Below are positions 24,481-57,500 of a stretch of DNA of 64,000 nucleotides, in pieces. Below the pieces are notes generated by a model. The model did no database searches. It had not been told where the DNA came from and saw only the letters and a program-made list of their open reading frames with translations. The translations under genes and the position numbers were made by a program. Source of the DNA: Pseudonocardia alaniniphila (lineage in GTDB: Bacteria > Actinomycetota > Actinomycetes > Mycobacteriales > Pseudonocardiaceae); the NCBI RefSeq assembly GCF_022524485.1, contig NZ_JAKXMK010000003.1:62001-126000 (forward strand), given 5' to 3'. How positions within the stretch are numbered: position 1 is the stretch's first letter; every line of letters starts with the position of its first letter.

Positions 24481-25335
24481 TCAGCCCGGATGCTCCCGGA
24501 ACTGCTCGAGAAGGAGCTCGGCGAGCTGATCGGGCGCTTCCTCCAGGATCCAGTGGCTCACGCCCCGCATCTCGACGTAGCGGAAGGGCCCGGCGACCTC
24601 GGTGTGCGTCAGCTCCGTGGACTGTCGGGTGATGGCCGTGTCGCCGTCGCTCCAGACGAACAGGGTGGGCACCTGCACGGGCGGGGTGCGGTCGGAGAAG
24701 GGGCCGGTCAGCAAGGCTCGGTACCAGTTGATCGCGGCGGTCAGCGCCCCCGGGTCGGCGAGTGCCGCCGCGTCCCGCTCCGCGGCGGGCCGGGACTGGC
24801 CGGAGCGCCGCAGGGCGGCCACGAGCCGCGGGGAGAACGGACGCCCGCCCGCGCCGAGGAAACGCTCCGGCAGGAACGGAAGCTGCAGCGCGTAGATGTA
24901 CCAGGACGCGAGCGCCTGCCTGGTGGTGAACAGAGAGCGGACGTACACGGTGGGCGGCGGCACCGAGATGGCGGTGAGCGAACGGACGCGGCCGGGGTGG
25001 CGCGCGGCCAGTGACCAGGCGACCGCGGCGCCCCAGTCGTGCCCGACGAGGTGCACGCGGCCCGCCGGGCCGACCAGGGAGTCGACGACGGCCAGCGCGT
25101 CGAGGACGAGACCGGACATCCGGTAAGCACGCCTGCCCCGCGGGCGGGCGCACGGCGAATAGCCGCGCTGGTCGGGCGCGAGCGTCCGGAAGCCTGCCGA
25201 GGCGAGCCGGTCCGCGACGGCGTCCCATGCCGTGCCACGCTGTGGGAATCCGTGCAGCAGCAGAACCGGGACACCATCGGCCGAACCGTGCTCGTGGACG
25301 TCGAAGGTCAGGTCACCGTGGGTCACCGTCAGCAC
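24481..25335 (-). CDS. Alpha/beta hydrolase, epoxide-hydrolase-like
   Basis: This 284-aa hydrolase carries HGFPQ (oxyanion) and GHDWGAA, where Asp replaces the usual Ser nucleophile; this is the pattern of epoxide hydrolases and haloalkane dehalogenases. The catalytic His lies in VSHWILEEAPD. A cap domain starting near SVPPPTVYVRSLF separates the core strands and contains Tyr residues that could polarise an epoxide. The start is uncertain: GTG 25333-25335 begins the fold, and TTG 25350 would add five residues. The physiological epoxide is unknown. Confidence 0.85.
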   Translation of the reverse strand: MLTVTHGDLTFDVHEHGSADGVPVLLLHGFPQRGTAWDAVADRLASAGFRTLAPDQRGYSPCARPRGRRAYRMSGLVLDALAVVDSLVGPAGRVHLVGHDWGAAVAWSLAARHPGRVRSLTAISVPPPTVYVRSLFTTRQALASWYIYALQLPFLPERFLGAGGRPFSPRLVAALRRSGQSRPAAERDAAALADPGALTAAINWYRALLTGPFSDRTPPVQVPTLFVWSDGDTAITRQSTELTHTEVAGPFRYVEMRGVSHWILEEAPDQLAELLLEQFREHPG

Positions 25336-25500
25336 CCGAGCATCATGCAATGCCGCTCACTCGGGGGGTTACCCGCTCGTCGGTTGTGCGACAGCGGGAG
25401 GTCGAGTTGGGTGGGCCCGGGCCGGGAGTTCCAGGCGCTACGGTCCCCGCCGGTACTGCCGCGGGAGGGGCCGTGGCACCAGTGACGAGAGTGAGCAGAT

Positions 25501-28500
25501 GTGACGGATCAGTCGTTCCACCGGGTCGTCATCGTCAACCGCGGGGAACCGGCAATGCGGTTGATCAATGCGGTACGGGAGTGGAACGCAGAGGTCTCAT
25601 CACCCGGATCTCCCGAATCCCTAGGCGACCGGCGGGCGCTGCGCACGATCGCGCTGTACACGGCGGTGGACCGGCACGCGATGTTCGTCCGCGAGGCCGA
25701 TGAGGCGGTGCTGATCGGGCCGGACGATCCGGACCAGGCCTTCGCCGCGAGCCCGTACCTCGACCACGCGGAGCTGGAGCGTGCGCTGCGGGAGGCGCGG
25801 GCCGACGCGGTGTGGCCGGGCTGGGGCTTCGTGTCGGAGAAGGCCGACTTCGCACGCCTGTGCCGCGAGCTGGGCATCGTGTTCATCGGCCCGTCGCCCG
25901 AGGTGATGGAGCGGCTCGGCGACAAGATCGCCGCGAAGAAGCTGGCCGAGGAGGTCGGCGTGCCGCTGGCCGCGTGGAGCGGCGGCGCGGTGGCCGACGT
26001 CGCCGCCGCGCGGGAGCACGCGGAGCGGATCGGCTACCCGCTGATGGTCAAGGCCACCGCCGGAGGTGGTGGCCGCGGCATCCGCCGCGTCGACTCGCCC
26101 GAGCAGCTCGAGGAGGCCTTCGAGCGGGCGAGCTCCGAGGCGTCGAAGACGGCAGGAGATGCCACGGTCTTCCTGGAGCGCGCGATCCGCGGCGGGCGGC
26201 ACGTCGAGGTGCAGGTGATCGCCGACGCCGACGGGGACGTGTGGACGCTCGGGGTCCGCGACTGTTCGGTGCAGCGGCGCAACCAGAAGGTGATCGAGGA
26301 GTCCGCCTCCACCGCGCTCGACGCGGAGCAGGAGGCGATCCTGCGCGCGTCCGCGGCCGAGCTCGTCCGGGCGGCGGGCTACGTGAACGCCGGCACCGTC
26401 GAGTTCCTCTACGAGCCCGGGGAGCGGCTGCTGTCGTTCCTCGAGGTCAACACGCGGCTGCAGGTAGAGCACCCGGTCACCGAGGCCACCACGGGCATGG
26501 ACATCGTCAAGCTGCAGCTGCACGTCGCCGCGGGCGGCAGGCTCGCCGACATCGCGCCGGAGGCCCCACCCGCCCGTGGGCACGCGATCGAGGCGCGGCT
26601 GACGGCGGAGGACCCGGAGCAGGGCTTCGCACCGGCGCCGGGGCGCATCGAGCACCTGGCCCTGCCCAGCGGGCCCGGGATCCGGGTGGACACCGGCGTC
26701 TGCTCCGGCGACCTGATCCCGCCGCAGTTCGACTCGATGATCGCCAAGGTGATCGCGTGGGGCCGCGACCGGGGCGAGGCGCGGGCCCGGCTGTCGCGGG
26801 CGCTGCGCCAGACCGCCGCCGTGATCGACGGCGGCACCACCAACAAGGCGTTCCTGCTCGACCTGCTGGACCGCCCCGAGATCCTCTCCGGCGACACCGA
26901 CACCACCTGGCTCGACGCCATGATGGCGAACGGCTACTCCCCGCCTCGGCGGCTCGATGTCGCACTGCTCGCCACGGCCGTGGAGGCGCAGGACGCGCAC
27001 GTGGCACGCCAGCGCGACCGGCTCTTCGCCTCCGCCGAGCGCGGCCGCCCCGAGGTGGGGCACGAGACCTGGCACCAGGTGGACGTGCGCGCCGCGGGCC
27101 AGTCCTACCGGCTGCGCGTGGCCCAGGCCCGGGGCAACCGCTATCGCGTGGAGCTCGACGGCCATGTCGTGGACGTCGACGCGGACCGCACCGGACGCTT
27201 CGAGCGCAAGCTCACGGTCGCCGGGCAGACGTTCGCGGTGCTGTCGGTGCCGCAGGGCTCCGACTACCTCGTCGAGGTCGACGGCGCGGTGCACCGCATC
27301 TCCGGCGGCGAGGCCGGACTGGTCCGCGCGCCCGCGCCTGCGATGGTGGTGTCGATCCCGATCAAGCCCGGCGACGTCGTCGAGGCGGGTGACGTCGTGG
27401 CGGTCGTGGAGAGCATGAAGCTCGAGACGGCCCTGCGCGCGCCCGTGGCCGGACGGGTCTGCGAGATCCTCGTCGCCCCGAACACGCAGGTGGAGGGCGG
27501 CACGAAGCTCGTCCGCCTGGAGCCCGACGCCGACGCGGCGGGCGCGGGCGACGGTGAGCGCGCCGACCTCTCCGGGCTGGCCGGGCCGCCCGCGGTCGGG
27601 GCCGACGCCGCCGCTGTGGCCGCGGACGCGCTGATGTCGCTGCGGTTCCTCGTGCTCGGCTTCGACATCGACGAGCGCGATGCCCGCCCGCTGCTGGCGG
27701 CCCTCTCCTCGGCCCGGAACGCGCTCCCCCCGGACGACGCCCGCGTGCTCGCAGGCGAGACGGCCGTGCTGCGCATCTTCGCCGACCTGTGCGCGCTGTC
27801 GCGCAACCGCCGGGGCCCCGAGGACGAGACGCAGCAGATCGACCCCGCGGGCGAGGAGGCCCGCAACCCGCAGGAGTTCCTGCACGCCTACCTGCGCTCG
27901 CGCGACGCCGACGCCGAGGGCCTGCCGGAGTCGTTCCGGGAGAAGCTGCGCCGCGCGCTCGCGCACTACGGCGTGCCGGACCTGACGCCGGCCGCCCCGG
28001 TCTCCGCCGACGCCCTGAACAGCGCGCTGTACCGGATGTTCCTCGCCCACCGCCGGGCCACCGCCCACGTCCCGGTGGTGCTGGAGCTGCTGCAGTGGCG
28101 GCTGCTGCACCCGGGCTCGCTGCCGGAGTCGACGCGTGAGGAGTACCAGCACACCCTCGACCGCCTGGTCCGCGCCACCCAGCTGCGGCACCCCGTCGTC
28201 GGCGGGTTCGCCCGCCGCGTCCGCTACACCTGCTTCGACGAGCCGGTGATCGCCGCCGAGCGCGCGGCGGGCCAGGCGAAAGTGCGCGCCGAGCTCGACC
28301 GGCTGTCCGACGACCCCGCCGTGCGCGCGGGGCAGATCGACACGATCGTCGCGGCAGCAGAACCGATCCTCGGTGTGTTCGGCGAACAGCACCACGCGGC
28401 GATGCTCGAGGTGATGACGCGGCGGTACTACCGCGGGCGGACGCTGACCGACGTGCGGCTCGAGGACCGCGGCGGACGGCCGCTGCTCACCGCCACCTAC

Positions 28501-31203
28501 TCGCTCAAGGACGGCGCGCGACCCCTCGACCGGGTGGACGACCTCGGCCCCGACCAGGCCGCGCATCTCGAGCAGATGGTGCTCGCCACCACGGTGCACA
28601 CCGCGCCGGACGCACCACCCGCGGGCGATCCGATGGCCGTGCAGGGCGACCTGCGGCGGATCATCTCGCAGCTGCCCGACAGCTGCACCGTGCTGCTCGA
28701 CCTCTACGTCATCGCAGGCGAGGCGCCCGACGCCGACCCCGAGCGGTCCGCGGAGAAGATCAGCGCGATGCTGGGCAGGCTGCCCAACCGGCTCGCGCGC
28801 GTGGCCGTCGCGGTGCGCAGGCCCGGTGGCGACGAGCGCTCGGCGTGGTTCACGTTCCGGCCCGACCCCACCGACCGCCGTCCCGTCGAGGACCGCACAC
28901 TGCGCGGGCTGCACCCGATGGTCGCCGAGCGGCTCGGCCTCTGGAGGCTCTCCGGGTTCGAGCTGACCAGGCTGCCCTCGCCGATCGACGTGCACCTCTT
29001 CCGCGCGGTCGGCAAGGACGTGCCCGGTGACCGCAGGCTGATCGCGCTGTCCGACGTCCGCGAGCTGACGGTGCTGCGCGACGAGCGGGGCCGCATTCGC
29101 GCGCTGCCGCAGCTGGAACACGTGCTCGACGCCTGCCTGGACGCCATGCGCTCGGCGCGGGCCACCGATCCCGGCGACGCCAGGGTGGACTGGAACCGGG
29201 TGCTGCTCTACGTCTGGCCCGTGGTCGAGGTGCCCGTCGACGAGGTGGACTCGGTGATCCGGGTGCTGGCCCCGCGCACCGAGGGGCTCGGCCTGGAGCA
29301 GGTGCTGGTGCAGTTCCGCCACTCCGGCGGGGACGGCGACAGCGAGCCGCGCGACCTCCTGCTGCGGATGTCCCGCCCACCGGGCGCCGGCCTCACCGTC
29401 CAGGTCACCGAGCCGCCGACCGCTCCGCTGCGGGAGCTGGACGCCTACGCACAGAAGGTGATCCGGGCCCGGCGCCGCGGGGCGGTCTACCCATACGAGC
29501 TGGTCCCGATGCTGCTGCGTGATCCCGACCGCCGCGGTGCCGACGCACGAGCGGCCGAAGCCGTGCGGGGGGTGTTCACCGAGTACGACCTCGATCCCGA
29601 CGGTGCCCCGGTCGTGGTCGACCGCGCTCCCGGCGGCAACACCGCCAACATCGTGCTCGGCACCGTCACCACCCCGTCGCAGCGCTACCCCGAGGGCATG
29701 ACCAGGGTGGTCCTGATCGGCGACCCGACCAAGGCGCTCGGTGCGCTCGCCGAACCGGAGTGCCGGCGCGTGCTCGCCGCGATCGAGCTGGCCCGTCGTT
29801 TCGACGCGCCCATCGAGTGGTTCGCGGTGTCGGCCGGGGCCAAGATCGCGATGGACTCCGGCACGGAGAACATGGACTGGATCTCCCGGGTGCTGCGCGG
29901 GATCATCGAGTTCACGCAGGACGGCGGCGAGATCAACGTCGTCGTCACGGGCATCAACGTGGGCGCCCAGCCGTACTGGAACGCCGAGGCCACGATGCTC
30001 ATGCACACCAAGGGCATCCTCGTGATGACGCCGGACAGCGCGATGGTGCTCACCGGCAAGCAGTCCCTCGACTACTCGGGCGGCGTGAGCGCCGAGGACA
30101 ACTTCGGGATCGGCGGCTACGACCGGATCATGGGCCCGAACGGGCAGGCGCAGTACTGGGCGCCCGACCTGTCCGGCGCGGTGGACGTGCTGCTCACGCA
30201 CTACGCCCACACCTACCGGGCGCCCGGCGAGCGGTTCCCCCGCCCCGCACTCACGGCCGACCCGGTGGACCGCGACATCAGCGACTCTCCGCACTCCGGT
30301 CCCGGCTGCGACTTCACCAGCGTGGGCGAGGTGTTCACGGCCAACCCGGGGCGCAAGAAGCCGTTCGACATCCGCTCGCTGCTCTACGCGGTGGCCGACT
30401 CCGACCACCCGACGCTGGAGCGCTGGGTCGACATGATCGACGCCGAGGGCGTGGTGGTGCTCGACGCGCACCTGGGCGGGCAGCCGATCGCGCTGCTCGG
30501 CATCGAGTCGCGTCCACTCCCCCGCCGCGGGCGCCCGCCGGTGGACGGGCCCACGACGTTCACAGCCGGCACGCTGTTCCCGAAGTCGTCGAAGAAGACC
30601 GCCAGGGCGATCAACGCGGCCAGCGGGAACCGGCCGCTGGTGATCCTGGCCAACCTCTCCGGCTTCGACGGGTCACCGGAGTCGTTGCGCCAGCTGCAGC
30701 TGGAGTACGGCGCCGAGATCGGCCGGGCCGTGGTCAACTTCGACGGCCCGATCGTGTTCTGCGTGGTCTCCCGCTACCACGGCGGTGCCTTCGTCGTGTT
30801 CTCCGGAACGCTGAACGACAGCATGGAGATCGCCGCCGTCGAGGGGTCCTACGCATCGGTGCTCGGCGGGGCGCCCGCCGCAGCCGTCGTGTTCGCGGGC
30901 GAGGTGAACAAGCGGACCGCCGCCGACCGGCGCATCTCCGATCTCGAGGGGCGCATCGCGGAGGCCCGGCAGGCCGGCGCCGAGTCCGAGGCCGCCCGGC
31001 TCACCTCGGAGCTCGCGGCCCTGCGTCCCGGCGTGCGGTCGGAGATGCTCGGGCAGGTGGCCGACGAGTTCGACACCGCGCACAGCGTGGAGCGGGCGCA
31101 GCGGGTCGGGTCGGTGCACTCGATCATCGACCCCACGCGCCTGCGCCCCTACCTCGCCGACGCCGTGCAGCGCGGTATGGCGAAGACGGGATCGCACCGC
31201 TAG
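25501..31203 (+). CDS. Single-chain acyl-CoA carboxylase (BC-BCCP-central-CT)
   Basis: This 1,900-aa enzyme should carboxylate acetyl-CoA or a related acyl-CoA using biotin. Biotin carboxylase occupies about residues 8-460: GGGGRGIR ATP-grasp loop, HVEVQVIAD, CSVQRRNQKVIEE, EVNTRLQVEHPVTE. The biotin carrier (about 595-680) contains VESMKLET with the biotinyl Lys at residue 640. A central region of about 690 residues of no obvious bacterial homology follows. Residues from about 1375 to 1885 form a carboxyltransferase with both halves (GGNTANIVLG to LDYSGGVSAEDNFGIGG; then LANLSGFDGSPESL). This order matches eukaryotic acetyl-CoA carboxylase. The start is GTG 25501. Acyl specificity is unproven. 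Confidence 0.9.
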   Translation: MTDQSFHRVVIVNRGEPAMRLINAVREWNAEVSSPGSPESLGDRRALRTIALYTAVDRHAMFVREADEAVLIGPDDPDQAFAASPYLDHAELERALREARADAVWPGWGFVSEKADFARLCRELGIVFIGPSPEVMERLGDKIAAKKLAEEVGVPLAAWSGGAVADVAAAREHAERIGYPLMVKATAGGGGRGIRRVDSPEQLEEAFERASSEASKTAGDATVFLERAIRGGRHVEVQVIADADGDVWTLGVRDCSVQRRNQKVIEESASTALDAEQEAILRASAAELVRAAGYVNAGTVEFLYEPGERLLSFLEVNTRLQVEHPVTEATTGMDIVKLQLHVAAGGRLADIAPEAPPARGHAIEARLTAEDPEQGFAPAPGRIEHLALPSGPGIRVDTGVCSGDLIPPQFDSMIAKVIAWGRDRGEARARLSRALRQTAAVIDGGTTNKAFLLDLLDRPEILSGDTDTTWLDAMMANGYSPPRRLDVALLATAVEAQDAHVARQRDRLFASAERGRPEVGHETWHQVDVRAAGQSYRLRVAQARGNRYRVELDGHVVDVDADRTGRFERKLTVAGQTFAVLSVPQGSDYLVEVDGAVHRISGGEAGLVRAPAPAMVVSIPIKPGDVVEAGDVVAVVESMKLETALRAPVAGRVCEILVAPNTQVEGGTKLVRLEPDADAAGAGDGERADLSGLAGPPAVGADAAAVAADALMSLRFLVLGFDIDERDARPLLAALSSARNALPPDDARVLAGETAVLRIFADLCALSRNRRGPEDETQQIDPAGEEARNPQEFLHAYLRSRDADAEGLPESFREKLRRALAHYGVPDLTPAAPVSADALNSALYRMFLAHRRATAHVPVVLELLQWRLLHPGSLPESTREEYQHTLDRLVRATQLRHPVVGGFARRVRYTCFDEPVIAAERAAGQAKVRAELDRLSDDPAVRAGQIDTIVAAAEPILGVFGEQHHAAMLEVMTRRYYRGRTLTDVRLEDRGGRPLLTATYSLKDGARPLDRVDDLGPDQAAHLEQMVLATTVHTAPDAPPAGDPMAVQGDLRRIISQLPDSCTVLLDLYVIAGEAPDADPERSAEKISAMLGRLPNRLARVAVAVRRPGGDERSAWFTFRPDPTDRRPVEDRTLRGLHPMVAERLGLWRLSGFELTRLPSPIDVHLFRAVGKDVPGDRRLIALSDVRELTVLRDERGRIRALPQLEHVLDACLDAMRSARATDPGDARVDWNRVLLYVWPVVEVPVDEVDSVIRVLAPRTEGLGLEQVLVQFRHSGGDGDSEPRDLLLRMSRPPGAGLTVQVTEPPTAPLRELDAYAQKVIRARRRGAVYPYELVPMLLRDPDRRGADARAAEAVRGVFTEYDLDPDGAPVVVDRAPGGNTANIVLGTVTTPSQRYPEGMTRVVLIGDPTKALGALAEPECRRVLAAIELARRFDAPIEWFAVSAGAKIAMDSGTENMDWISRVLRGIIEFTQDGGEINVVVTGINVGAQPYWNAEATMLMHTKGILVMTPDSAMVLTGKQSLDYSGGVSAEDNFGIGGYDRIMGPNGQAQYWAPDLSGAVDVLLTHYAHTYRAPGERFPRPALTADPVDRDISDSPHSGPGCDFTSVGEVFTANPGRKKPFDIRSLLYAVADSDHPTLERWVDMIDAEGVVVLDAHLGGQPIALLGIESRPLPRRGRPPVDGPTTFTAGTLFPKSSKKTARAINAASGNRPLVILANLSGFDGSPESLRQLQLEYGAEIGRAVVNFDGPIVFCVVSRYHGGAFVVFSGTLNDSMEIAAVEGSYASVLGGAPAAAVVFAGEVNKRTAADRRISDLEGRIAEARQAGAESEAARLTSELAALRPGVRSEMLGQVADEFDTAHSVERAQRVGSVHSIIDPTRLRPYLADAVQRGMAKTGSHR

Positions 31204-31261: not shown

Positions 31262-32446
31262 TCAGGAGCAGACCTGCTTGGCCTTCAGCACCCGCGTCAC
31301 CGCGGCATCGTTCGCCGCGGGGTCGATGCGGCCCGCCTGCAGGTCCTGTTCCAGCCGGTCCAGCACCGGGGTGACGCGCCCGCCGCTCGACCACAACGCC
31401 ATGTCGGCGCCCGCGGTCAGGGCTCGTTCGACGGCCGTGGGCAGGTCGAAGGTGTCGGTGATGGCCTTCATGGCGCCCAGGTCGTCGGTGAGCACGAGAC
31501 CGTCGAACCCGTAGTCGGTGCGCAGGAGGTGGTAGGCCGCGGGCGTGAGCGTGGCGGGCAGGTCGGTGGTGAGCCCCGGCACGTCCAGGTGCCCGACGAG
31601 CACGCCCGTGCGGCCGTCGGCGAGCGGTCCCCCGGGGCCCAGGAGGGTGGCGTAGGGGCGCAGGTCGTCGGTCCGCAGCTGGTCGAGCGGCGGGGTGGTG
31701 GCCTTGCCCTTGTGCGAGTCTCCGACGGCACGGCCGTGGCCGGGGAAGTGCTTGAGCACGGTGAACACACCCGCCTCGCGCTCGCCCTCGGCGAAGGCGG
31801 CCGCGTACGTCGCGACCGTGTCGGGGTCGGTGCTGAAGGAGCGGTCCCCGATCACCGCGTTCGCCGGCTGGTTACCCATGTCGACGACCGGGGCGAGATC
31901 CATCGTGATCCCGCGGGCGAGCTGCTCACGACCCCGCTCGAGGCCCTGTTCCTTCACCTGCGCCGGCGTCATCTGCGCGGCCATCACCCGGGCGCTGGGC
32001 ATGTTGCCGTCCAGGGCGTCGATGCGCTGCACGCGCCCGCCCTCGTCGTCCACGGAGACGGCGAGCGGGATCCGGGCCATCGCCTGCACCCCGCGCAGAG
32101 CCTGGTTGGTGAGCAGCTGGGTGGGGTTGTCGCCGACGAAGATGCCGCCCACCTGTGTGGCGCGCACGGTCTCGGCGGTGGTGGCCGGGTCGGAGGCGTC
32201 GACGCCCACCATGAGCCGCTGCGCGAGCTTGTCGCGCGGGCTCATCGCGTCGACGACGGCAGCGCAGCGTGGCAGCCGGTCTGCGCCCAGGTTCGCGCCG
32301 GTGAGCGGCGGCGCCGGGGCGGGCGGTGCTGCGGCGGCGGGCAGCGCGGTGACTGCGGCCATCGTGGCGGCCAGCAGTGCGGCGAGGGAACAGGCCCGGG
32401 CGCGCCCGGGCCTCGCGGGCAGGAGGAAGCGTGATCGGCTCGGCAT
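31262..32446 (-). CDS. Secreted glycoside hydrolase family 3, NagZ-like
   Basis: This 394-aa protein has a Sec signal peptide: basic N-terminus, hydrophobic ACSLAALLAATMAAVTALPAA, cleavage near AAA-AP. It is therefore exported and, lacking a lipobox, may be free or wall-bound. The family 3 barrel shows KHFPGHGRAVGDSH (acid/base loop) and GLVLTDDLGAMKA with the nucleophilic Asp. It resembles beta-N-acetylhexosaminidases acting on peptidoglycan or chitin fragments. ATG 32444-32446 is chosen because the signal peptide starts there. It complements the cytoplasmic homologue at 9693. Confidence 0.87.
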   Translation of the reverse strand: MPSRSRFLLPARPGRARACSLAALLAATMAAVTALPAAAAPPAPAPPLTGANLGADRLPRCAAVVDAMSPRDKLAQRLMVGVDASDPATTAETVRATQVGGIFVGDNPTQLLTNQALRGVQAMARIPLAVSVDDEGGRVQRIDALDGNMPSARVMAAQMTPAQVKEQGLERGREQLARGITMDLAPVVDMGNQPANAVIGDRSFSTDPDTVATYAAAFAEGEREAGVFTVLKHFPGHGRAVGDSHKGKATTPPLDQLRTDDLRPYATLLGPGGPLADGRTGVLVGHLDVPGLTTDLPATLTPAAYHLLRTDYGFDGLVLTDDLGAMKAITDTFDLPTAVERALTAGADMALWSSGGRVTPVLDRLEQDLQAGRIDPAANDAAVTRVLKAKQVCS

Positions 32447-32521
32447 CGCACGCCATCCTTCCCCCGCGAGCCGCCGCGCGGGGGGCGGGGGACAGCGAGG
32501 CCAATCACAGGCCCACCACGA

Positions 32522-32551
32522 ATGGTAGATTCCTACCATGCGCACTACCAT
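32522..32551. promoter_or_regulatory. VapBC operator over the vapB start codon
   Basis: ATGGTAG (32522-32528) and CTACCAT (32533-32539) form a perfect inverted repeat, and a third half-site CTACCAT occurs at 32545-32551. A TAGATT element (32526-32531), a plausible -10 box, lies inside the palindrome 6 nt before the ATG. Binding of VapBC here would block both transcription and, in effect, a leaderless start. Confidence 0.65.
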
Positions 32552-32786
32552 CGACGGAGCCGGCCGCGTGGTGATCCCGAAGCAGCTGCGCCAGGCAGCC
32601 GCACTCGAGCCCGGTCAGGAACTGGAGATCGTCGAGCGCGACGGGCGGATCGTGATCGAACCGGTCTCCGCGCCGATGGAGCTCGTCGAGCGCGACGGTT
32701 TCCTGGCGGCCGAGGTTCCGGGGGACGATGCCCCGTCCCTGACGCCCGACGAGGTGCGCCACGTCCTCGAACGCACCCGTCGGTGA
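32538..32786 (+). CDS. vapB: Antitoxin of a VapBC module (AbrB-type)
   Basis: This 82-aa antitoxin has an N-terminal AbrB-like swapped-hairpin DNA-binding domain (TTIDGAGRVVIPKQLRQAAAL, LEPGQELEIVERDGRIVIEPV). The flexible C-terminal tail (about 50-82; VPGDDAPSLTPDEVRHVLERTRR) would wrap the toxin. It neutralises VapC and, with it, represses its own promoter. The ATG is within the operator repeats and no Shine-Dalgarno precedes it, so the mRNA is probably leaderless. Confidence 0.88.
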   Translation: MRTTIDGAGRVVIPKQLRQAAALEPGQELEIVERDGRIVIEPVSAPMELVERDGFLAAEVPGDDAPSLTPDEVRHVLERTRR

Positions 32787-33187
32787 TCACGTGTGACACC
32801 TCGGTCCTGGTCGCCGCATTCGCCAGGTGGCACACCGAGCATCCGCTCGCCGTGGCAGCGATCGGCCGAGTCGACGCCGTGGTCGAGCATGTGCTGATCG
32901 AGACCTTCTCGGTCCTGACGAGGCTGCCGCCGCCGCGGCGGGTTCCCGCGCGGCTCGTCACGTCGTTTCTCGACGGGCACTTTCCCCCGTCGACGTCACG
33001 GCTCGCCGGCGCTCGTTCCGCCGATGTCCTGCAGGTGGCGGAGAACACCGCCGTGCTCGGCGGCGCCGTCTACGACCTCGTGGTCGCTCTGTCCGCCGCG
33101 CGGGCCGGCGCCGTGTTGCTGACCCTCGATCGGCGCGCCGCCACCACCTACGACGCCGCGGGCGTCGATTACGAGTTGCTCAGCTGA
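32783..33187 (+). CDS. vapC: PIN-domain ribonuclease toxin of a VapBC module
   Basis: This 134-aa toxin would cleave RNA, usually a tRNA or rRNA, when its antitoxin is lost. The N-terminal ITCDTSVLVAAF contains the first metal-binding Asp. The helix containing VEHVLIETFSVLTRL supplies the acidic Glu, and the late AVYDLVVALSAA and LTLDRRAATTY carry further acidic residues. GTG 32783 overlaps the vapB stop by 4 nt, so toxin translation depends on antitoxin translation. Its last 8 nt overlap the stop of the convergent GST gene. Confidence 0.87.
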   Translation: MITCDTSVLVAAFARWHTEHPLAVAAIGRVDAVVEHVLIETFSVLTRLPPPRRVPARLVTSFLDGHFPPSTSRLAGARSADVLQVAENTAVLGGAVYDLVVALSAARAGAVLLTLDRRAATTYDAAGVDYELLS

Positions 33188-34178
33188 TCGCAGGCACCCG
33201 CTCGCCCTCCGGCGGCGGACCGGGCGGGGTGCCGTCGCCGAACGGGCGGCCGCCGAGCGCTTCGCGCCCGTGCGGGGTGAGCCAGTTCCGGACGTCCGGG
33301 CCGAGGGGCACCACCCGGGTCGGGTTGATGTCCGTGTGCACGCCGTAGTAGTGCTGCTTGATCTGCTCGAAGTCGATCGTGTCGCCGAAGCCCGGCGTCT
33401 GGAACAGGTCGCGCGCGTAGGCCCACAGCACCGGCATCTCGGTGAGCTTCTGCCGGTTGCACTTGAAATGGCCGTGGTAGACGGCGTCGAAACGCACGAG
33501 CGTGACCCAGAGCCGGATGTCGGCCTCGGTGATCGTGTCGCCGACGAGGAAGCGACGCGCCTCGAGCCGCTCCGACAGGACGTCGAGCCGGGCGAACAAC
33601 GCCCGGTAGGCCTGCGCGTAGGCGTCCTGGCTGTTCGTGAAGCCGCACTTGTAGACGCCGATGTTGACGTCCTCGTACACCGCCTGGTTGATCTCGTCGA
33701 TCTCGGCCCGGTGCTCCACGGGGTAGAGATCCGGCGCGCCGTCGCGGTGGAAGGCGGTCCACTGGGTGGAGAAGTCGAGGGTGAGCTGCTGGAACCCGTT
33801 GGTCACCACCTTCCCGGTGGCGATCTCCACCACGGCGGGGACGGTGATGCCGGCGTCGAAGCCGGGGTCGGCCTTGCGGTAGGCCTCACCGAGGTACTCG
33901 ATGCCCAGCACCGGGTCCCGGTTGTCCGGGTCGAGGTGGAACCGCCAACTGCGCTCGTCGTGCAATGGACCTGCCAGACCGATCGACAGCACGGGCTCCA
34001 GCCCCAGCAACCGGCGGACGATCACGCTGCGGTTCGCCCACGGGCATGCCCGAGCGACGACCAGGCGGTAACGACCGGCCTCCACCGGCCATCGGGACGA
34101 GCCGTCGGACGTGATCCGCTCGTCCAGTGCCACGGGCTTGTACTCGAATGCCTCGCCGCTGGTCTGTGTGGCAGTCAT
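33180..34178 (-). CDS. Xi-class glutathione S-transferase / glutathionyl-hydroquinone reductase-like
   Basis: This 332-aa cytoplasmic thiol transferase has the catalytic ACPWANR motif (Cys-Pro-Trp) near residue 46, in a thioredoxin fold. An all-helical C-terminal domain (from about residue 170; DEINQAVYEDVNIGVYKCGF) follows. Length and motif match YqjG/ECM4-type enzymes that remove thiol adducts from hydroquinones. Actinobacteria normally use mycothiol, so the thiol partner may differ. ATG 34176-34178 has GCAGG just upstream. The gene is monocistronic. Confidence 0.9.
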   Translation of the reverse strand: MTATQTSGEAFEYKPVALDERITSDGSSRWPVEAGRYRLVVARACPWANRSVIVRRLLGLEPVLSIGLAGPLHDERSWRFHLDPDNRDPVLGIEYLGEAYRKADPGFDAGITVPAVVEIATGKVVTNGFQQLTLDFSTQWTAFHRDGAPDLYPVEHRAEIDEINQAVYEDVNIGVYKCGFTNSQDAYAQAYRALFARLDVLSERLEARRFLVGDTITEADIRLWVTLVRFDAVYHGHFKCNRQKLTEMPVLWAYARDLFQTPGFGDTIDFEQIKQHYYGVHTDINPTRVVPLGPDVRNWLTPHGREALGGRPFGDGTPPGPPPEGERVPAIS

Positions 34179-36851: not shown

Positions 36852-37400
36852 TCAGACGGAGAGGAAGACGGTCTCCCCGGCGCCCTGTAGGCGGATGTCG
36901 AAGCGCAGCTCGTCCGGGCCCGCATCCCGAGCCACCAGCGTGCCCGCCCGCTCCGGCGGGAGCGAGGCGAGCAGTGGGTCAGCGGCGTTGGCCGCGGCCT
37001 CGTCCGGGAAGTAGATCCTCGTCACTACCCGGTCGAGCAGGCCGCGCGCGAGCACGGTGACGTCGATGTGGGGCGCCTGGCCGTCACCGATCGCGCCGGG
37101 CTTGACGGTGAGGATCTCGAAGCGGCCCTCCCCGTCCGTCGCGCAGCGCCCGAAGCCGCGGAACCCGGAGCCCGTCGCGCCCCGCGGGTCGTCCGGGTGG
37201 TCGAAGCGACCGTCGGCGTCGGCCTGCCACGTCTCGACGAGCCCGTCCACGACCGGTGCGCCTGCTCCGTCGGTGAGAACCCCGGAGATCCGGATCGCCC
37301 CGGGCGTGCCCTGCGGCACGACGAGGTGCCCCTCCAGCCAGGTGAGCCCGAGGCTCAGGAACGGACCGACGGTCTGCGACGGGGTCAGCAGCTCACTCAT
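36852..37400 (-). CDS. pcaG: Protocatechuate 3,4-dioxygenase, alpha subunit
   Basis: This 182-aa non-catalytic subunit pairs with PcaH in the ring-cleaving dioxygenase that opens protocatechuate to beta-carboxy-cis,cis-muconate. The N-terminus LTPSQTVGPFLSLGL and the core VETWQADADGRFDHPDDPRG are typical. The metal ligands of the beta chain are not conserved as a full set, as expected for alpha. The ATG at 37398-37400 lies within the last codons of pcaH (8-nt overlap), giving coupled synthesis in equal amounts. Confidence 0.94.
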   Translation of the reverse strand: MSELLTPSQTVGPFLSLGLTWLEGHLVVPQGTPGAIRISGVLTDGAGAPVVDGLVETWQADADGRFDHPDDPRGATGSGFRGFGRCATDGEGRFEILTVKPGAIGDGQAPHIDVTVLARGLLDRVVTRIYFPDEAAANAADPLLASLPPERAGTLVARDAGPDELRFDIRLQGAGETVFLSV

Positions 37401-38139
37401 GGGGCTCCTCGAAGGGGGTCTGCTCGCGGCCGCGGAGGACGATGTCGAATCGGTACGCCAGCGCCCATTCCGGGCGCGTGGCCGACAGGTCGAACGTCGA
37501 GACCATCCGCTGGCGGGCAGCGGGGTCGGGCACGGAGTTGAAGATCGGGTCCTGGTCGAACAGCGGGTCGTCCGGGAAGTACATCTGCGTCACCAACCGC
37601 TGGGTGAACGACCGGCCGAACAGCGAGAAGTGGATGTGCGCAGGGCGCCAGGCGTTGTGGTGGTTGCCCCACGGGTAGGCGCCGGGCCTGATCGTGGTGA
37701 ACGAGTAGTTGCCCTGGGCGTCGGTCACGACGCGACCGCCGCCGGTGAAGTTGGGGTCCAGCGGTGCGGGCCAGTTGTCCACGACGTGGGCGTAGCGGCC
37801 GGCCGCGTTGGCCTGCCACACCTCGACGAGTGTGTTCGGCACCGCACGGCCGTCGCTGTCGAGCACCCGGCCGAAGACGACGATCCGCTGCCCGATCGCC
37901 TCACCGGCGTGCTGCGTGGTCAGGTCGTTGTCGTTCGGGCCGATGTCGCCGGTGAGCAGCGGTCCGGTCACCTCGGTGAGCCGGTGGCGCAGCACCACGG
38001 GCGCCTGGGACGGCGCCCGCAGACCGGTGCTCCGGTAGCCCCCGAACGACAGTGACGGGTGGTTCCCCTCCGCGGCCGGGCGGTAGCCGGCGGGATGCGG
38101 GGTCGACGTGGTGGGTTGGGATTTCGCGAGTTCGGTCAA
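37393..38139 (-). CDS. pcaH: Protocatechuate 3,4-dioxygenase, beta subunit
   Basis: This 248-aa iron(III) subunit carries the active site. The four ligands are visible as Tyr in NAAGRYAH, Tyr in GAYPWGN and two His in WRPAHIHFS. It cleaves protocatechuate between the hydroxyl groups. The start is a rare TTG at 38137-38139, overlapping the pobA stop (TTGA), with GGAGAG about 5 nt upstream. The N-terminal 40 residues precede the usual family start. Together with pobA and pcaG it forms a three-gene operon; later beta-ketoadipate genes are not in the window. Confidence 0.93.
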   Translation of the reverse strand: MTELAKSQPTTSTPHPAGYRPAAEGNHPSLSFGGYRSTGLRAPSQAPVVLRHRLTEVTGPLLTGDIGPNDNDLTTQHAGEAIGQRIVVFGRVLDSDGRAVPNTLVEVWQANAAGRYAHVVDNWPAPLDPNFTGGGRVVTDAQGNYSFTTIRPGAYPWGNHHNAWRPAHIHFSLFGRSFTQRLVTQMYFPDDPLFDQDPIFNSVPDPAARQRMVSTFDLSATRPEWALAYRFDIVLRGREQTPFEEPHE

Positions 38140-39305
38140 CGGTTCTCTCCATGGGGCAGGCCGACGTAGTTCTCGGCGAGGGAGGTGGCCGCCGCGCGGG
38201 AGGTCACCGTGTAGTGCAGCTGAGACAGCTGCAGGCGGCGGGCGAACGGGTCGGTGTCCGGGGAGACGTGCAGCATCGAGGTCATCCACCAGGAGAAGTG
38301 CTCGGCCCGCCACACCCGGCGCAGGCAGGTGTCGGAGTAGGCGTCCACCCCGGACTCGTCGCCGCGGCGGAGGTAGTCGGTCAGGGCCTCGGCGAGCACG
38401 CGCACGTCGGCGATGGCGAGGTTCATCCCCTTCGCGCCTGTGGGCGGCACGATGTGTGCGGCATCGCCCGCCAGGAAGAGCCGGCCGTGGCGCATCGGCT
38501 CCGCCACGACGCTGCGCATGCCGGTGACGCTCTTCTCGATGAGCGGCCCCTCGTTGAGGGTGAAGCCGTCGGCGGCGAGCCGGACGCCCAGCTCGTCCCA
38601 GATCCGCGCGTCCGACCAGGCACCCGCGTCCGTGTCCGGCGGCACCTGCAGGTAGAGCCGGGTGATCTCGGGGCTGCGCATCGAATACAGCGCGAACCCG
38701 CGCGGGTGGTTGGCGTAGGCGAGCTCGTGCTGCGTCGGAGCGGCCTTCGCGAGGATCCCCAGCCAGGCGTACGGGTACTCGCGGTCGAACATCTGCGGCT
38801 CGAACGTGCCGCGACTGATGCCGTGGAAGCCGTCGCAGCCGGCCACGGCGTCGCACCGCAGTTCCTGCCGCTGTCCGTCGGCATCGGTGAAGCCGATCAC
38901 GGGTGCGTCGGCGAGCCCGTCGAGCGTCACGTCCGACACCTCGAACCGGAGGTCCCCGCCGTCGCGTAGCCGGGCGGCGATGAGGTCCTTCACGACCTCC
39001 TGCTGGCCGTAGACGGTGATGCCGCGCCCGACCAGGTCGGCGAAGTCGATGCGGTGGTCACCGCCGTCGAAGCGCAGGGAGATGCCGTCGTGAGGCATCC
39101 CCTCCCGGTCGAGGCGCTCGGCGAGCCCGACCTCGCGCAACAGCTCCACCGTGGGGTGCTCCAGCACGCCCGCCCGCACCCGGCGCTCGACGTAGTCGCG
39201 GCTGCGCGCCTCCAGCACCACCGAGTCGATCCCGGCCCGGGCCAGGAGGTGGGACAGCAGTAGCCCTGCCGGTCCGGCTCCGATGATCCCGACCTGCGTT
39301 CGCAT
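38136..39305 (-). CDS. pobA: 4-Hydroxybenzoate 3-monooxygenase
   Basis: This 389-aa FAD-dependent hydroxylase turns 4-hydroxybenzoate into protocatechuate, the substrate of the downstream dioxygenase. It shows GIIGAGPAGLLLSHLL (FAD Rossmann), ARSRDYVERRVRAGVLE (the PobA signature region), a CDGFHG segment and RLFLAGDAAHIVPPTGAKGMN (FAD ribityl binding). Length and motifs match PobA closely. Actinobacterial PobA enzymes often prefer NADH or use both cofactors; which applies here is not visible. A divergent IclR gene lies 80 bp upstream. Confidence 0.94.
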   Translation of the reverse strand: MRTQVGIIGAGPAGLLLSHLLARAGIDSVVLEARSRDYVERRVRAGVLEHPTVELLREVGLAERLDREGMPHDGISLRFDGGDHRIDFADLVGRGITVYGQQEVVKDLIAARLRDGGDLRFEVSDVTLDGLADAPVIGFTDADGQRQELRCDAVAGCDGFHGISRGTFEPQMFDREYPYAWLGILAKAAPTQHELAYANHPRGFALYSMRSPEITRLYLQVPPDTDAGAWSDARIWDELGVRLAADGFTLNEGPLIEKSVTGMRSVVAEPMRHGRLFLAGDAAHIVPPTGAKGMNLAIADVRVLAEALTDYLRRGDESGVDAYSDTCLRRVWRAEHFSWWMTSMLHVSPDTDPFARRLQLSQLHYTVTSRAAATSLAENYVGLPHGENR

Positions 39306-39346
39306 ACGGGCAAGACTGGCCTACCGACCTGCAGGCGCTCGACTCC

Positions 39347-39365
39347 GCTTCCGCTCACCGGAAGC
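39347..39365. promoter_or_regulatory. Candidate IclR operator between pobA and its regulator
   Basis: GCTTCCG (39347-39353) and CGGAAGC (39359-39365) are perfect inverted arms with a 5-bp spacer. They sit in the 80-bp divergent promoter region. The sequence AGACTGGC also occurs twice, at 39313-39320 and 39373-39380, exactly 60 bp apart on either side of the palindrome. Confidence 0.5.
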
Positions 39366-39385
39366 CCGAGGCAGACTGGCACGCG

Positions 39386-40126
39386 ATGGCACAGTCGGTC
39401 ACCGCCCGTGTTCTCCAGGTGCTCGCCGCGTTCAGCGCCGAGCGCCCCGAGCTCACGCTCACCGAGATCAGCAGACGCACGGCGCTCCCGCTGACCACCA
39501 CGCACCGCATCGTCGGCGAGCTCGCCGAGTGGGGTGCTCTGGAACGCGCCACCGATGGCCGCTACCGCGTCGGGCTGCGGCTCTGGGAGGTGGGCGCGCT
39601 CGCCCCCCGCGGACTGGGGCTGCGCGAGACGGCCATGCCGTTCCTGGAGGACCTCTACGAGGTGACCAGGCAGAACGTGCAGCTCGCGGTGCTCGACGGC
39701 GACGAGGCGGTGTTCCTGGAACGGCTGTCGGGGCGCGGCGCCGTGCGCGTCCTCACGCGCGTCGGAGGCCGGCTTCCGCTGCACGCCACGGGCGTCGGGC
39801 AGGTCCTGCTCGCCTTCGGCGGGGCCGAACTGCAGGAGAGGGTGCTCGCCGGTGCCCTCAAGCGCTACACGGATCGCACGCTGTGCGACCCCGAGGACCT
39901 GCGCCGGGCGCTCGCCGAAGTCCGCCGCACGGGCGTGGCGGTCACCGCCGGCCACGTCGAGCTGGTCGCCACCTCGGTCGCGGCGCCGGTGCGAGGCCCG
40001 CGAGGCGACGTGGTGGCCGCCCTGTCGGTGGTGGTGCCCTCCGCCAACTCCGACACCATGGCGTTCGTCCCGGTCGTCCGAGCTGCCGCAATGGGGATCT
40101 CCCGGCGGCTCGGCGCCCCCGACTGA
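39386..40126 (+). CDS. IclR-family regulator (PcaR/PobR-like)
   Basis: This 246-aa regulator has an N-terminal winged helix (about residues 5-65; LTLTEISRRTALPLTTTHRIVGELAEWGALER) and a C-terminal effector domain (about 75-245). It is divergent from pobA-pcaHG, and IclR proteins are the usual activators of 4-hydroxybenzoate and protocatechuate pathways, so it probably controls this operon. The inducer is likely 4-hydroxybenzoate or protocatechuate, by inference. ATG 39386 begins the helix-turn-helix domain. Confidence 0.88.
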   Translation: MAQSVTARVLQVLAAFSAERPELTLTEISRRTALPLTTTHRIVGELAEWGALERATDGRYRVGLRLWEVGALAPRGLGLRETAMPFLEDLYEVTRQNVQLAVLDGDEAVFLERLSGRGAVRVLTRVGGRLPLHATGVGQVLLAFGGAELQERVLAGALKRYTDRTLCDPEDLRRALAEVRRTGVAVTAGHVELVATSVAAPVRGPRGDVVAALSVVVPSANSDTMAFVPVVRAAAMGISRRLGAPD

Positions 40127-53530: not shown

Positions 53531-53866
53531 GAGCGCCAGTGAAGCGCACCGGGACCGGACCGGCCCCGCTGAGGCCGCGGCAACCAGTGCAATCCCGCGT
53601 GCCGGACGACACCGGCACGGTCCGAACAGGAGATCGCTGACCTGCGAAAACCCGTTGTGTTCGGCGTCTAGCCGACCGTAGCCGCAGGCAGGGCCGTTCG
53701 CGTGAGCCGGTGGGGGCGAATGGCTCATCTCGCCCGGTACGGGGCGTCTCGGTATTGACCGGGCACCGCGGACGCCCGTACTACAGGCGCGGGACTGGGC
53801 GTCCCGGCGGGGAACGACGACCGGGTTGGCCGGTCCCGGGCGCCCGCGGTCCCGAGGGGACCTCCC
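53531..53866. other. 336-nt divergent promoter region
   Basis: No gene is supported here. It holds the candidate promoter of the membrane protein/P450 operon (53755-53784) and GGGCGTC half-sites described separately. The part near the Cds1-like gene shows no clear promoter elements. Confidence 0.5.
53742..53803 (+). promoter_or_regulatory. Promoter and half-sites of the membrane protein/P450 operon
   Basis: TTGACC (53755-53760) and TACTAC (53779-53784) are 18 bp apart. The heptamer GGGCGTC occurs at 53742-53748 and 53797-53803, and inverted as GACGCCC at 53771-53777. These half-sites flank or touch the -35 and -10 boxes, as expected for an operator. No regulator gene is adjacent. Confidence 0.45.
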
Positions 53867-54574
53867 ATGGCAGCAGCCACGCGGCACGACACCGGCAGCA
53901 CCCCGGTCATCGCCAGGCCCGGGCTGTTCCACGCCCGGATGGCCGGCATCTCCGGCGTGGTGTTCGCGGTGTTGTTCACCGTCGGGCTGGTACTGCTCCA
54001 GCAAGCGCCGGACCTGGAGGCCTCGGACGCCGAGTACGTCGCGTTCTACAGCTCGGGATCCGGCAACGTACTGGTCGCACTCGGCCTGTACGTCGTCCCG
54101 TTCGCCGGCATCGCCTGCCTCTGGCACATGATCGCGACGCGCACCCTGCTGCAGGTGCTCCGCCCGGCGTCGTGGTCGCAGATCCCGCACTGGCTGCATC
54201 TGGCCGCGGGAGTGCTGTTCGTCGCGATGCTCTACAGCGGCGCGGCCGCGGTCGGCGCGGTGGCCCTGCTGTCCCAGTTCTCGAACGTGCCGGCGCCCGC
54301 ACCCGACGTCGCCCGCGCCCTCTCGTCGGTGGGCTACTCGATGGTCTTCGTCTACGGCGTCCGGGCCGCCGGCGTGTACATGATCACCACCACCGGGCTC
54401 GCCAGGCTGGCCGGCGTCCTACCGCGCTGGCTCGCCGCAGCGAGCTACGTCATCGCCGCGTTCCTGCTGGTCAGCGTGACCTTTCATCCCGCGATCCTGC
54501 TGGTGTTCCCGGCCTGGGTGCTCATGATGAGCATCCTGCTGCTCGCGCACCGGCCGATTGGAGAAACACCATGA
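53867..54574 (+). CDS. Multi-pass membrane protein coupled to the P450 gene
   Basis: This 235-aa protein has about six hydrophobic segments, starting at [20 protein letters not shown] do not recognise a named family. The segment between membrane helices 1 and 2 ([17 protein letters not shown]) is predicted to face outward. ATG 53867 has GAGGGGACC just upstream. The stop overlaps the start of the self-sufficient P450 (ATGA), so equal synthesis is likely. A role in substrate entry or membrane anchoring of the P450 is a reasonable guess. Confidence 0.75.
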
Positions 54575-57500
54575 GTGAGCCGATCGGACTCGACGAGATA
54601 CCCGGTCCCCGAGGGCTCCCGCTGCTGGGCAACATCTTCGACCTCGACGCCCACAACCCGATCGACGCACTGGTGCGAATGGCCGGTGAATACGGGCCGC
54701 TGTTCAAGCTCAACGTCCCCGGTGGCATGCGCCTGTTCGTATCCGGCCCCGAACTGGTGAACGAGATCTGTGACGAGCAGCGCTTCGACAAGCAGGTCGG
54801 CGGGGGCCTGTCCAACCTGCGCCGCGGCGGCATGTCGAACGGGCTCTTCACCTCCCGCACCGACGACCCGTTGTGGCACCGCGCGCACAACATCCTGATG
54901 CCGCCCTTCAGCCAGCAGTCGATGCGCGACTACATGCCGAAGATGCTCGACATCGCCGATCAATTGATGGAGAAATGGGGGCGGCTCAATCCGGGCGAGG
55001 ACGTCGACGTGCCCGCGGACATGACCAGGCTGACCCTCGACACCATCGCGTTGTGCGGGTTCGGCTACCGGTTCAACTCGTTCTACCGCGACACCCCGCA
55101 CCCGTTCGTCGAGGCGATGGTGCGTTCCCTGACCGAGGCGCAGACCAGGGTCCGGCAGACGAAGCTGCAGACGCGTCTGCGGGTCCGCGCCCAGCGTCAG
55201 GCGGAGGAGGACCAGGCGTTCATGAACGACCTGGTCGACCGGCTGATCACCGAACGCCGCGCGGAGGGGGACGCGGCCGACACCACCGACCTGCTCGGAC
55301 GGATGCTCGTGGGCGTCGACAAGCAGAGCGGTGAGCGGCTGCCCGACGTCAACATCCGCGCGCAGTGCATCACGTTCCTCATCGCGGGCCACGAGACGAC
55401 CTCGGGCCTGCTCTCCTTCGCGATCTACTACCTGCTCAAGAACCCGGACATGATGGAACGGGCGCGCGCCGAGGCCGACGACGTGCTCGGCACCTGGGCG
55501 TGGCCGACCTTCGAGCAGGTGCAGCGGCTCACCTACATCAGGCAGGTGCTCGACGAGGCCCTGCGGCTCTGGCCCACGGCCCCGGCGTTCAGCCGCTATC
55601 CCTACGAGGACACCGTGATCGGCAGCCGGTACGCGATCCCCGCCGGCACCACCCTCAGCGTCGTGATTCCGGCGCTGCACCGCCAGACATCGGTGTGGGG
55701 CCCGGACGCGGAGGAGTTCAACCCGGACCACATGGGCCCCGAGCGGCTGGCCGGCCTTCCCCCCAACGCCTACAAGCCCTTCGGCACGGGGCAGCGCGCG
55801 TGCATCGGGCGGCAGTTCGCGCTGCAGGAGGCCACGCTCGTACTCGGCATGCTGCTGCAGCGGTTCGAACTCGTCGACCACCTGGGCTACGAGCTGAAGA
55901 CCAAGACGACGCTGACCGTCAAGCCGGACGAGTTCCGGATCCAGGTCCGGCCCCGCAGCGACGTCCACATCGAACGGGGCGCCGTCCCACCGGTGGCGAC
56001 CGAGAGCCCCGCACGCACCGAGTCCATCGGCACCGCTGCCGCCGCTGCGGTCGCCCCGGCGGTGGCGCGCCACGGCACCCCGCTGTCGGTGCTGTTCGGA
56101 TCGAACCTCGGCACGGCCGAGGGCATCGCCACCCGGCTGGCGCAGGAGGGCACGGAACGCGGCTTCGACGTGACGCTGGGCGCGCTCGACGACCACGTCG
56201 ACGACATGCCCGCGAGCGGGGCCACAGTGATCGTGTCCTCGTCCTACAACGGCACGCCGCCGGACAACGCCGACGCGTTCTGCCGATGGATCACCGGAGC
56301 GGGCGACGGGGCCGCCGAGGGCGTCGCGTACACCGTCTTCGGCTGCGGCAACACCGAATGGGCAGCCACCTACCAGGCCGTGCCCACGCTGCTGGACGAG
56401 CAGCTGGAGGCCCACGGCGGCCGCCGCGTGCACCGCAGGGGCGAGGGCAACGCGGCCGGTGACTTCGACGCCCAGTACCGCGACTGGCACAGCGACCTCT
56501 GGTCCGACCTCGCCACCGCGCTCGACCTGCCAGCCGAGGTCGGCGCCGCCGTCGACGGCGGGCCGCGGCTGTCGCTCACGTTGACCAACCGGCAGCTCAC
56601 CAACCCGGTGATCGTGTCCTACCGGGCCCGTCCGGGGCGGGTCACCGTCAACCGGGAGCTACTGATCGGCAACGGCAAGCCGGTCGACCGCTCCACCCGG
56701 CACGTCGAGATCGCGTTGCCGCCGGAGATGCCCTATCGCGCCGGTGACCACCTCGGCGTGCTCCCGCGCAACAGCGTCGACCTGATCCGGCGGGTGATGG
56801 CGCGCTTCGGACTGGACGCCGGTCAGTACGTCACGATCATCCCGCGCAGCGGCACCCACACCCACCTGCCGATCGAGGAGCCCGCACCGTTGCTCGGCGT
56901 GCTCGGCAGCTGCGTCGAGCTGCAGGACGTGGCCACGCGCGACGACATCCAGACCCTCGCCCGCTACACGACCGACCCGGACCAGAAAGCGCAGCTCGAG
57001 TCCTTCGCCGGCGACGACGAGGAGGCCCACGCCCGCTACACCGAGCACGTGTTCACGCCGAACCGGTCGATGCTCGACCTGCTCGAGGCGTTCCCGGCAT
57101 GTGAGGTGCCGTTCGAGGTCTTCCTCGACATGCTGCCTCCGCTGCGCCCGCGGTACTACTCGATCTCCTCGTCACCGATGGCGGATCCGGAGGTCTGCAG
57201 CATCACGGCAGGGGTGCTCCGCGGGCCTGCCCGGTCCGGGGTGGGGACCTTCACCGGGATCTGCTCGGGGCACCTGTCGATCGTCCCGGAGAACGGCACG
57301 GCCTTCGTGTTCGTCCGGCAGCCCTCGATCCCGTTCCGGCCACCGGAGAACCCGCACGTGCCGATGATCATGATCGGCGCCGGCACGGGGCTCGCACCCT
57401 TCCGCGGGTTCCTGCAGGAACGGGCGGTCCTGCAGCAGCAGGGAGTGCCGATCGCGCGGTCGCTGCTCTTCTTCGGCTGCCGCCGCCCGGACACCGACAT

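Follow-up and report, generated by a model that had tools for sequence, protein, structure and literature searches.

What kind of enzyme is encoded by a gene that places every part of an acyl-CoA carboxylase on one chain of 1,900 residues: a specialised second carboxylase, a recent fusion of ordinary subunits, or the enzyme that supplies malonyl-CoA for fatty acids? This question is raised by a locus in the window, the 64,000-nucleotide stretch of Pseudonocardia alaniniphila DNA that was analysed here. A preliminary description of the locus had reported a carboxylase of this length in eukaryote-like order, with a large central region and both carboxyltransferase (CT) halves; it had taken separate AccA/AccD-type subunits as the actinobacterial norm and had considered a role in secondary metabolism possible.

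We found that the gene for this protein (P0001; Table 1) is an uninterrupted frame that ends in a stop, with GC fractions of 0.95 at third (GC3) and 0.49 at second (GC2) codon positions; its codon composition looks like that of a genuine high-GC gene. The alignments of nearly all untruncated relatives reach residues 1-8 of P0001, and that of L042, a relative at a contig end, begins at residue 49. An artefact or a broken gene is ruled out by the single open frame and the full-length relatives, and because such relatives occur across several phyla, chance is ruled out as well. The longest competing frame runs antisense (25621..30471, minus strand, 1616 aa) and is probably a mirror frame of the kind common in high-GC DNA.

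The Pfam matches follow one another in the order Biotin_carb_N (residues 6-136), CPSase_L_D2 (141-349), Biotin_carb_C (364-472), Biotin_lipoyl, ACC_central and Carboxyl_trans. The last of these covers positions 55-472 of the 493 in its profile, and both CT halves are therefore present in P0001. The biotin carboxylase (BC), biotin carboxyl carrier (BCCP), central and CT parts thus lie on one chain of the ~200 kDa size class, and the length and the eukaryote-like order that had been reported are both borne out. The motif ESMKLE occupies residues 637-642, which confirms position 640 for the presumed biotinyl lysine, and this residue is a lysine in each of the 80 full-length family proteins of the alignment, which contains P0001. 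The alignment comprises 77 of the best 80 relatives (of 356) together with L097, L098 and P0001, and omits the incomplete proteins L037, L039 and L044. Nine BC residues (K142, K184, H234, Q258, E301, E315, N317, R319 and E323) are invariant in 80/80 members; we take them to be the counterparts, matched by motif, of the active-site residues of E. coli BC. As aligned, P0001 carries both the (A/S)MK biotinyl-lysine motif and the conserved BC active-site residues. At residue 261 (window 26281-26283) the BC motif RRHQK reads RRNQK in 66 of the 80 members; histidine is kept in 13 (seven of the eight Acidobacteriota, three Woeseiaceae, Minicystis, L060 and L063), and L079 has glutamine.

Table 1. Features of the single-chain carboxylase gene, its flanks and related loci (positions are those of the window unless a locus is named).
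Feature	Position	Strand	Basis
Alpha/beta hydrolase gene, divergent, upstream flank	24481..25350	-	Pfam scan
Single-chain multidomain acetyl-/acyl-CoA carboxylase gene (protein P0001)	25501..31203	+	1900 aa, GTG start
BC domain, residues 6-472	25516..26916	+	Pfam, conserved residues
BC-BCCP linking region, residues ~485-607, BT-like domain expected	26953..27321	+	Position inference
BCCP domain, residues 608-673	27322..27519	+	Biotin_lipoyl, E 3.1e-13
Lys640 codon, presumed biotin attachment site (ESMKLE)	27418..27420	+	K in 80/80
Central region, residues 672-1400, with a helical N part ahead of alpha/beta parts	27514..29700	+	Model, Foldseek, Chaetomium ACC match
Pfam ACC_central (PF08326) stretch, residues 1097-1257	28789..29271	+	Pfam, E 5.3e-10, 38.6 bits (cut-off 23.2)
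CT domain, N and C halves, residues 1398-1886	29692..31158	+	Pfam, CT matches, CT tree
Glycoside hydrolase family 3 (GH3) gene, convergent, downstream flank	31262..32551	-	Pfam scan, neighbour comparison
AccD6-type CT	L099:7968-9395 (contig C50)	+	AccD6 score
Modular type I PKS gene with KS, AT, KR and ACP	L099:153-9377 (contig C50)	-	Pfam
Non-actinobacterial single-chain ACC loci	L055, L061, L065, L068, L069, L070, L072, L079, L081, L084, L087, L088		

A structure prediction for the central region, one of the checks that the preliminary description had proposed, was made for residues 672-1400 from 44 family sequences and is confident (pLDDT 84.0, pTM 0.81). All 31 Foldseek matches of this model at E <= 0.001 were eukaryotic acetyl-CoA carboxylases (ACC). 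Similarly, the best seventeen rows of a VIA alignment were all eukaryotic ACC, and the first unrelated row had a Z of 8.4. Thirteen of these rows cover most of the model; 5trc and 5cs4 cover model residues 249-648 and, with the thirteen long rows, have Z of 25.9-31.0, and two partial eukaryotic ACC chains have Z of 20.6 and 20.2. The best row, yeast 5csa_B, had a Z of 31.0 and an rmsd of 6.9 across 503 aligned residues, and 5trc_A reached Z 30.9 over 369 residues with an rmsd of 3.4. By sequence, the central region gave four matches at E <= 1e-6, all to Chaetomium ACC (best E 3.1e-7). Because the seventeen top VIA rows and the Foldseek matches are all eukaryotic ACC, the modelled region shares the eukaryotic ACC scaffold fold, from its helical N part through its C-terminal parts. 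Eukaryotic cytosolic ACC (yeast 5csl, Chaetomium 5i6i and human ACC1 8xkz; Z 28.4-30.2) resembles P0001 not only in this fold but also in the BC-BCCP-central-CT order and in the kinship of the CT; it differs in length (~2200-2400 residues, against ~1900 for P0001), and the central regions are 15-20% identical.

A bacterial enzyme with the same domain plan has been described: SACE_4237 of Saccharopolyspora erythraea, a homodimeric multidomain acetyl-/propionyl-CoA carboxylase (Livieri et al. 2019, PMC6491548). It is reported to be active as a dimer of ~400 kDa and to be essential, for fatty-acid synthesis, the growth of a conditional mutant being rescued by oleic acid (PMC6491548). The same paper gives a complex of alpha (BC-BCCP) and beta (CT) subunits as the usual actinobacterial enzyme, which corrects the AccA/AccD-type norm assumed earlier, and suggests that the eukaryotic enzyme came from Actinobacteria (PMC6491548). 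We located SACE_4237 with the paper's reverse primer, which matches two of 390 Pseudonocardiaceae genomes; the forward primer fits both. The SACE_4237 protein encoded in one of these genomes (L097) shares 52% of its residues with P0001 in an alignment that spans positions 6-1893 of the latter, and the two CTs are 71% identical. Given this near end-to-end similarity, P0001 is a member of the published SACE_4237 family; the two proteins have in common the domain order, the length class, the central domain and the ESMK biotin motif.

The two proteins nevertheless lie on different branches of the family tree. In a quick full-length tree of 80 proteins, with relatives drawn from the best 80 of 356, P0001 belongs to a clade that adjoins Nitriliruptorales (SH-aLRT 99) and has 37 further members, which come from Pseudonocardia, Actinomycetospora and one Pseudonocardiales MAG. 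SACE_4237 and other Pseudonocardiaceae fall in a different clade, with Nocardioides, Gordonia and Phytoactinopolyspora; both branches belong to the actinobacterial part of the tree, whose deepest fork is tentative. The split could be the outcome of paralogy, of transfer or of uneven sampling. Given the separate clades, P0001 may or may not be a strict one-to-one orthologue of SACE_4237, and its physiology need not be the same. Seven of the Actinomycetospora rows are on the P0001 side; Actinomycetospora soli L086 is in the clade of Nocardioides and SACE_4237, and its CT match is reported with one internal TGA.

To place the gene within its genus and family, we used the central domain as a marker. 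Of 62 Pseudonocardia genomes, 59 gave exactly one match and three (G303, G311 and G312; 88, 92 and 90% complete) gave none, and the marker was present in 342 of the 390 Pseudonocardiaceae genomes, representing 42 of 46 genera. In this family the single chain is thus the rule, and the separate-subunit norm assumed in the preliminary description fails. Of 296 genomes sampled evenly across the phylum, only 20 carried the marker (both counts include the own genome), and it was absent from all 14 control genomes. The own genome is a 9.4-Mb assembly (completeness 100, contamination 7.29) with the window in contig C39. The closest relatives of P0001 are from Pseudonocardia, with 90% for P. xinjiangensis in its best-matching segment. 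The P0001 gene is solitary: upstream, 150 bases separate it from the start of the divergent hydrolase frame, and downstream, 58 bases separate it from the 3' end of the convergent GH3 gene. Its near neighbours encode a phosphofructokinase, an MFS protein, the hydrolase, the GH3 protein, a MazE-like protein, a GST, a GMC oxidoreductase, a dioxygenase, an FAD monooxygenase and an IclR regulator. Among 66 longer loci compared, GH3 was in the flank of 23, MFS of 22 and GST of 20, all from Pseudonocardia, and none of the window neighbours was near the gene in other genera. At least one of eleven window neighbours was again near the gene in 26 of 27 Pseudonocardia loci, L024 having none.

Alternatively, P0001 could have arisen when alpha and beta subunits of the ordinary actinobacterial kind were joined in the recent past, which would make the eukaryote-like appearance deceptive. 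The BC part taken alone agrees with such an origin: in phmmer searches ordinary BC subunits outscore eukaryotic ACC, the best matches are prokaryotic and mitochondrial BC-bearing enzymes, and eukaryotic ACC is absent among the matches listed (60 of 76); the published statement is that BC and CT agree. The trees and the central region, however, point the other way. In the BC tree, which contains family members and own-genome BCs and no eukaryotic row, 18 family members from four phyla are split by a 100/100 branch from the six other BCs of the genome (rows C43 and C47 were trimmed at a motif and may retain some residues from upstream). Similarly, in the CT tree a 100/100 branch separates 18 family members and yeast ACC, the one eukaryotic row, on a long branch of 2.7, from eight free-standing or LCC CTs, four of them from the own genome and four, LCC included, from the Saccharopolyspora genome; this tree omits C31 of the own genome (AccD/AccA-like) and L114 and L118 of genome G372 (weak matches). 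Among solved structures, the top hits of the P0001 CT are eukaryotic ACC CT domains, with a best E of 1.2e-19, as compared with 7.7e-6 for the highest-ranking free CT subunit. In the phylogenetic comparison with eukaryotic ACC that had been proposed, the CT groups with the eukaryotic domain, in a tree with one long-branch eukaryotic row; the BC tree sets the family against own-genome BCs. Together with the eukaryotic ACC fold of the central region, these data make a fusion extremely improbable, and a recent joining of the host's own subunits is ruled out by the BC and CT trees. Actinobacterial two-subunit ACC/PCC (alpha BC-BCCP, beta CT, epsilon) resembles P0001 in its chemistry and likely in its acetyl-/propionyl-CoA range, but consists of separate chains without the central domain and lies on the opposite side of both 100/100 branches. 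P0001 might instead be a carboxylase of the LCC type (SACE_3154), since LCCs are likewise single chains and the substrate range of the CT is not readable from sequence here. This identity is scarcely credible: LCCs have ~1100 aa (1093 aa in 4rcn), none of the 24 CT matches is an LCC, and the LCC CT of the Saccharopolyspora genome groups with subunit CTs, on another CT branch than that of P0001. In addition, LCC is described as having another domain order and no central region, and SACE_4237 does not carboxylate palmitoyl-CoA (PMC6491548).

The remaining alternative is the one raised in the preliminary description, that P0001 is a second, specialised acyl-CoA carboxylase that provides secondary metabolism with extender units, the malonyl-CoA for fatty acids coming from another complex. 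The genome does hold six CT matches: the window gene and C32, C14, C48, C50 and C31. C32 is of the PccB type (873.3 bits to PccB of 1xnv, which we take to be from S. coelicolor), and C50 is of the AccD6 type, with 582.6 bits to AccD6 (a query presumably from M. tuberculosis) vs 398.4 to PccB. The AccD6 type is reportedly, from the title of a cited study, the essential ACC in mycobacteria. The idea that the genome has no other ACC candidate is ruled out by this AccD6-type CT. The earlier word "second" is therefore apt only insofar as the genome has five further CT genes, not in the sense of a specialised enzyme. SACE_4237 was itself suggested by Livieri et al. to feed erythromycin synthesis as well (PMC6491548). 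Against a specialised role, an AccD6-type CT (>=450 bits; the next score, 389, is PccB-type) was found in 16 of 62 Pseudonocardia genomes, with up to 26 candidates scored per genome, as compared with 59 for the single-chain marker; G303, which is without the marker, is among the 16. In the own genome it is the AccD6-type CT of C50, and not the P0001 gene, that adjoins a PKS: it appears to diverge from the modular PKS gene, which is encoded on the opposite strand. It is thus a separate subunit that bears the sign of a specialised role, the reverse of the earlier guess, and this CT is a better candidate for such a role than P0001. In the window, a Pfam scan of 35 of the open reading frames at E <= 1e-4 found no PKS/NRPS core domain (ketoacyl synthase, acyltransferase, condensation, adenylation), and on these 35 frames we reject membership of a biosynthetic cluster. 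The single copy in nearly all of the genus, the kept neighbours and the lack of PKS/NRPS among the scanned frames do not bear out the proposed secondary-metabolism role, which is also opposed by the characterised relative, an essential fatty-acid ACC (PMC6491548); we regard it as very unlikely. The S. erythraea-like genome G372 differs from the window genome, which has an AccD6-type CT, in giving no CT match of AccD6-like score and length in a search made with a query other than AccD6 itself.

We conclude that P0001 is very likely a eukaryotic-type homodimeric multidomain ACC of the SACE_4237 family that mainly supplies malonyl-CoA for fatty acids. Its dimeric state, substrates and essentiality we infer from SACE_4237. 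By this analogy, the BC domain would use ATP and bicarbonate to carboxylate the biotin on Lys640, the BCCP, held on the central scaffold, would take the carboxybiotin to the CT dimer, and the CT dimer would make malonyl-CoA from acetyl-CoA and probably methylmalonyl-CoA from propionyl-CoA. Like SACE_4237, for which this has been shown, the enzyme would most likely serve chiefly to provide fatty-acid synthesis with malonyl-CoA, and any feeding of polyketide synthesis would be a side effect. Because AccD6-type and PccB-type CTs are present in the own genome, redundancy is possible, and AccD6 could serve as a backup of the single-chain enzyme in this strain. In Pseudonocardia, the single-chain ACC is very probably an ordinary core enzyme rather than an oddity, and as such it matters for metabolic models and for the engineering of malonyl-CoA supply in these actinomycetes. 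The find is real and largely ordinary, such bacterial enzymes being already known from a relative. The additions made here are modest: a Pseudonocardia/Actinomycetospora branch apart from that of SACE_4237, and the same enzyme in Acidobacteriota, Woeseiaceae and Minicystis.

This distribution beyond Actinobacteria is the part that deserves specialist attention. Single-chain ACC was found in eight Acidobacteriota, in three Woeseiaceae MAGs and in the complete chromosome of Minicystis rosea (Myxococcota); MAG bins can contain foreign contigs. None of these groups is named in PMC6491548. In an even draw of Acidobacteriota it was present in 5 of 199 genomes, centre included. The genomes of L088, L055 and L061, one each of Acidobacteriota, Woeseiaceae and Minicystis, also gave separate CT half-matches of AccD and AccA size, the two names being assigned from the profile half that was matched. 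With such subunits alongside in the three genomes searched, the single-chain ACC would be a second ACC there. We tentatively suggest, as a possibility that we would not yet favour, that the eukaryotic-type single-chain ACC is an old bacterial enzyme, patchily distributed in at least four phyla and at least two actinobacterial lineages, and a true second ACC beside AccA/AccD outside Actinobacteria. If so, the proposed actinobacterial origin of eukaryotic ACC would be open again and testable with these proteins; the Acidobacteriota, Woeseiaceae and Myxococcota sequences provide material for re-examining the origin of the eukaryotic chain.

Other features of the window were noted in passing. Downstream of the GH3 gene lies a gene for a MazE/AbrB-type antitoxin-like protein (32538-32786, plus strand), followed by a 173-aa frame (32827-33345) that has no Pfam match. 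Genes likely for aromatic-acid degradation occupy 36852-40126: a dioxygenase (36852-37400, minus strand), an FAD monooxygenase (38136-39305, minus strand) and an IclR regulator (39386-40126, plus strand). An SDR at 42199 weakly matches the KR model, as SDRs do. A chain of 1368 aa (53710-57816, plus strand) joins a cytochrome P450 to a flavodoxin/FAD/NAD reductase, and selenocysteine machinery is encoded at 59934-63114 (plus strand), with a SelA-like gene (59934-61277) followed by a SelB-like elongation factor (frame 60667-63114).
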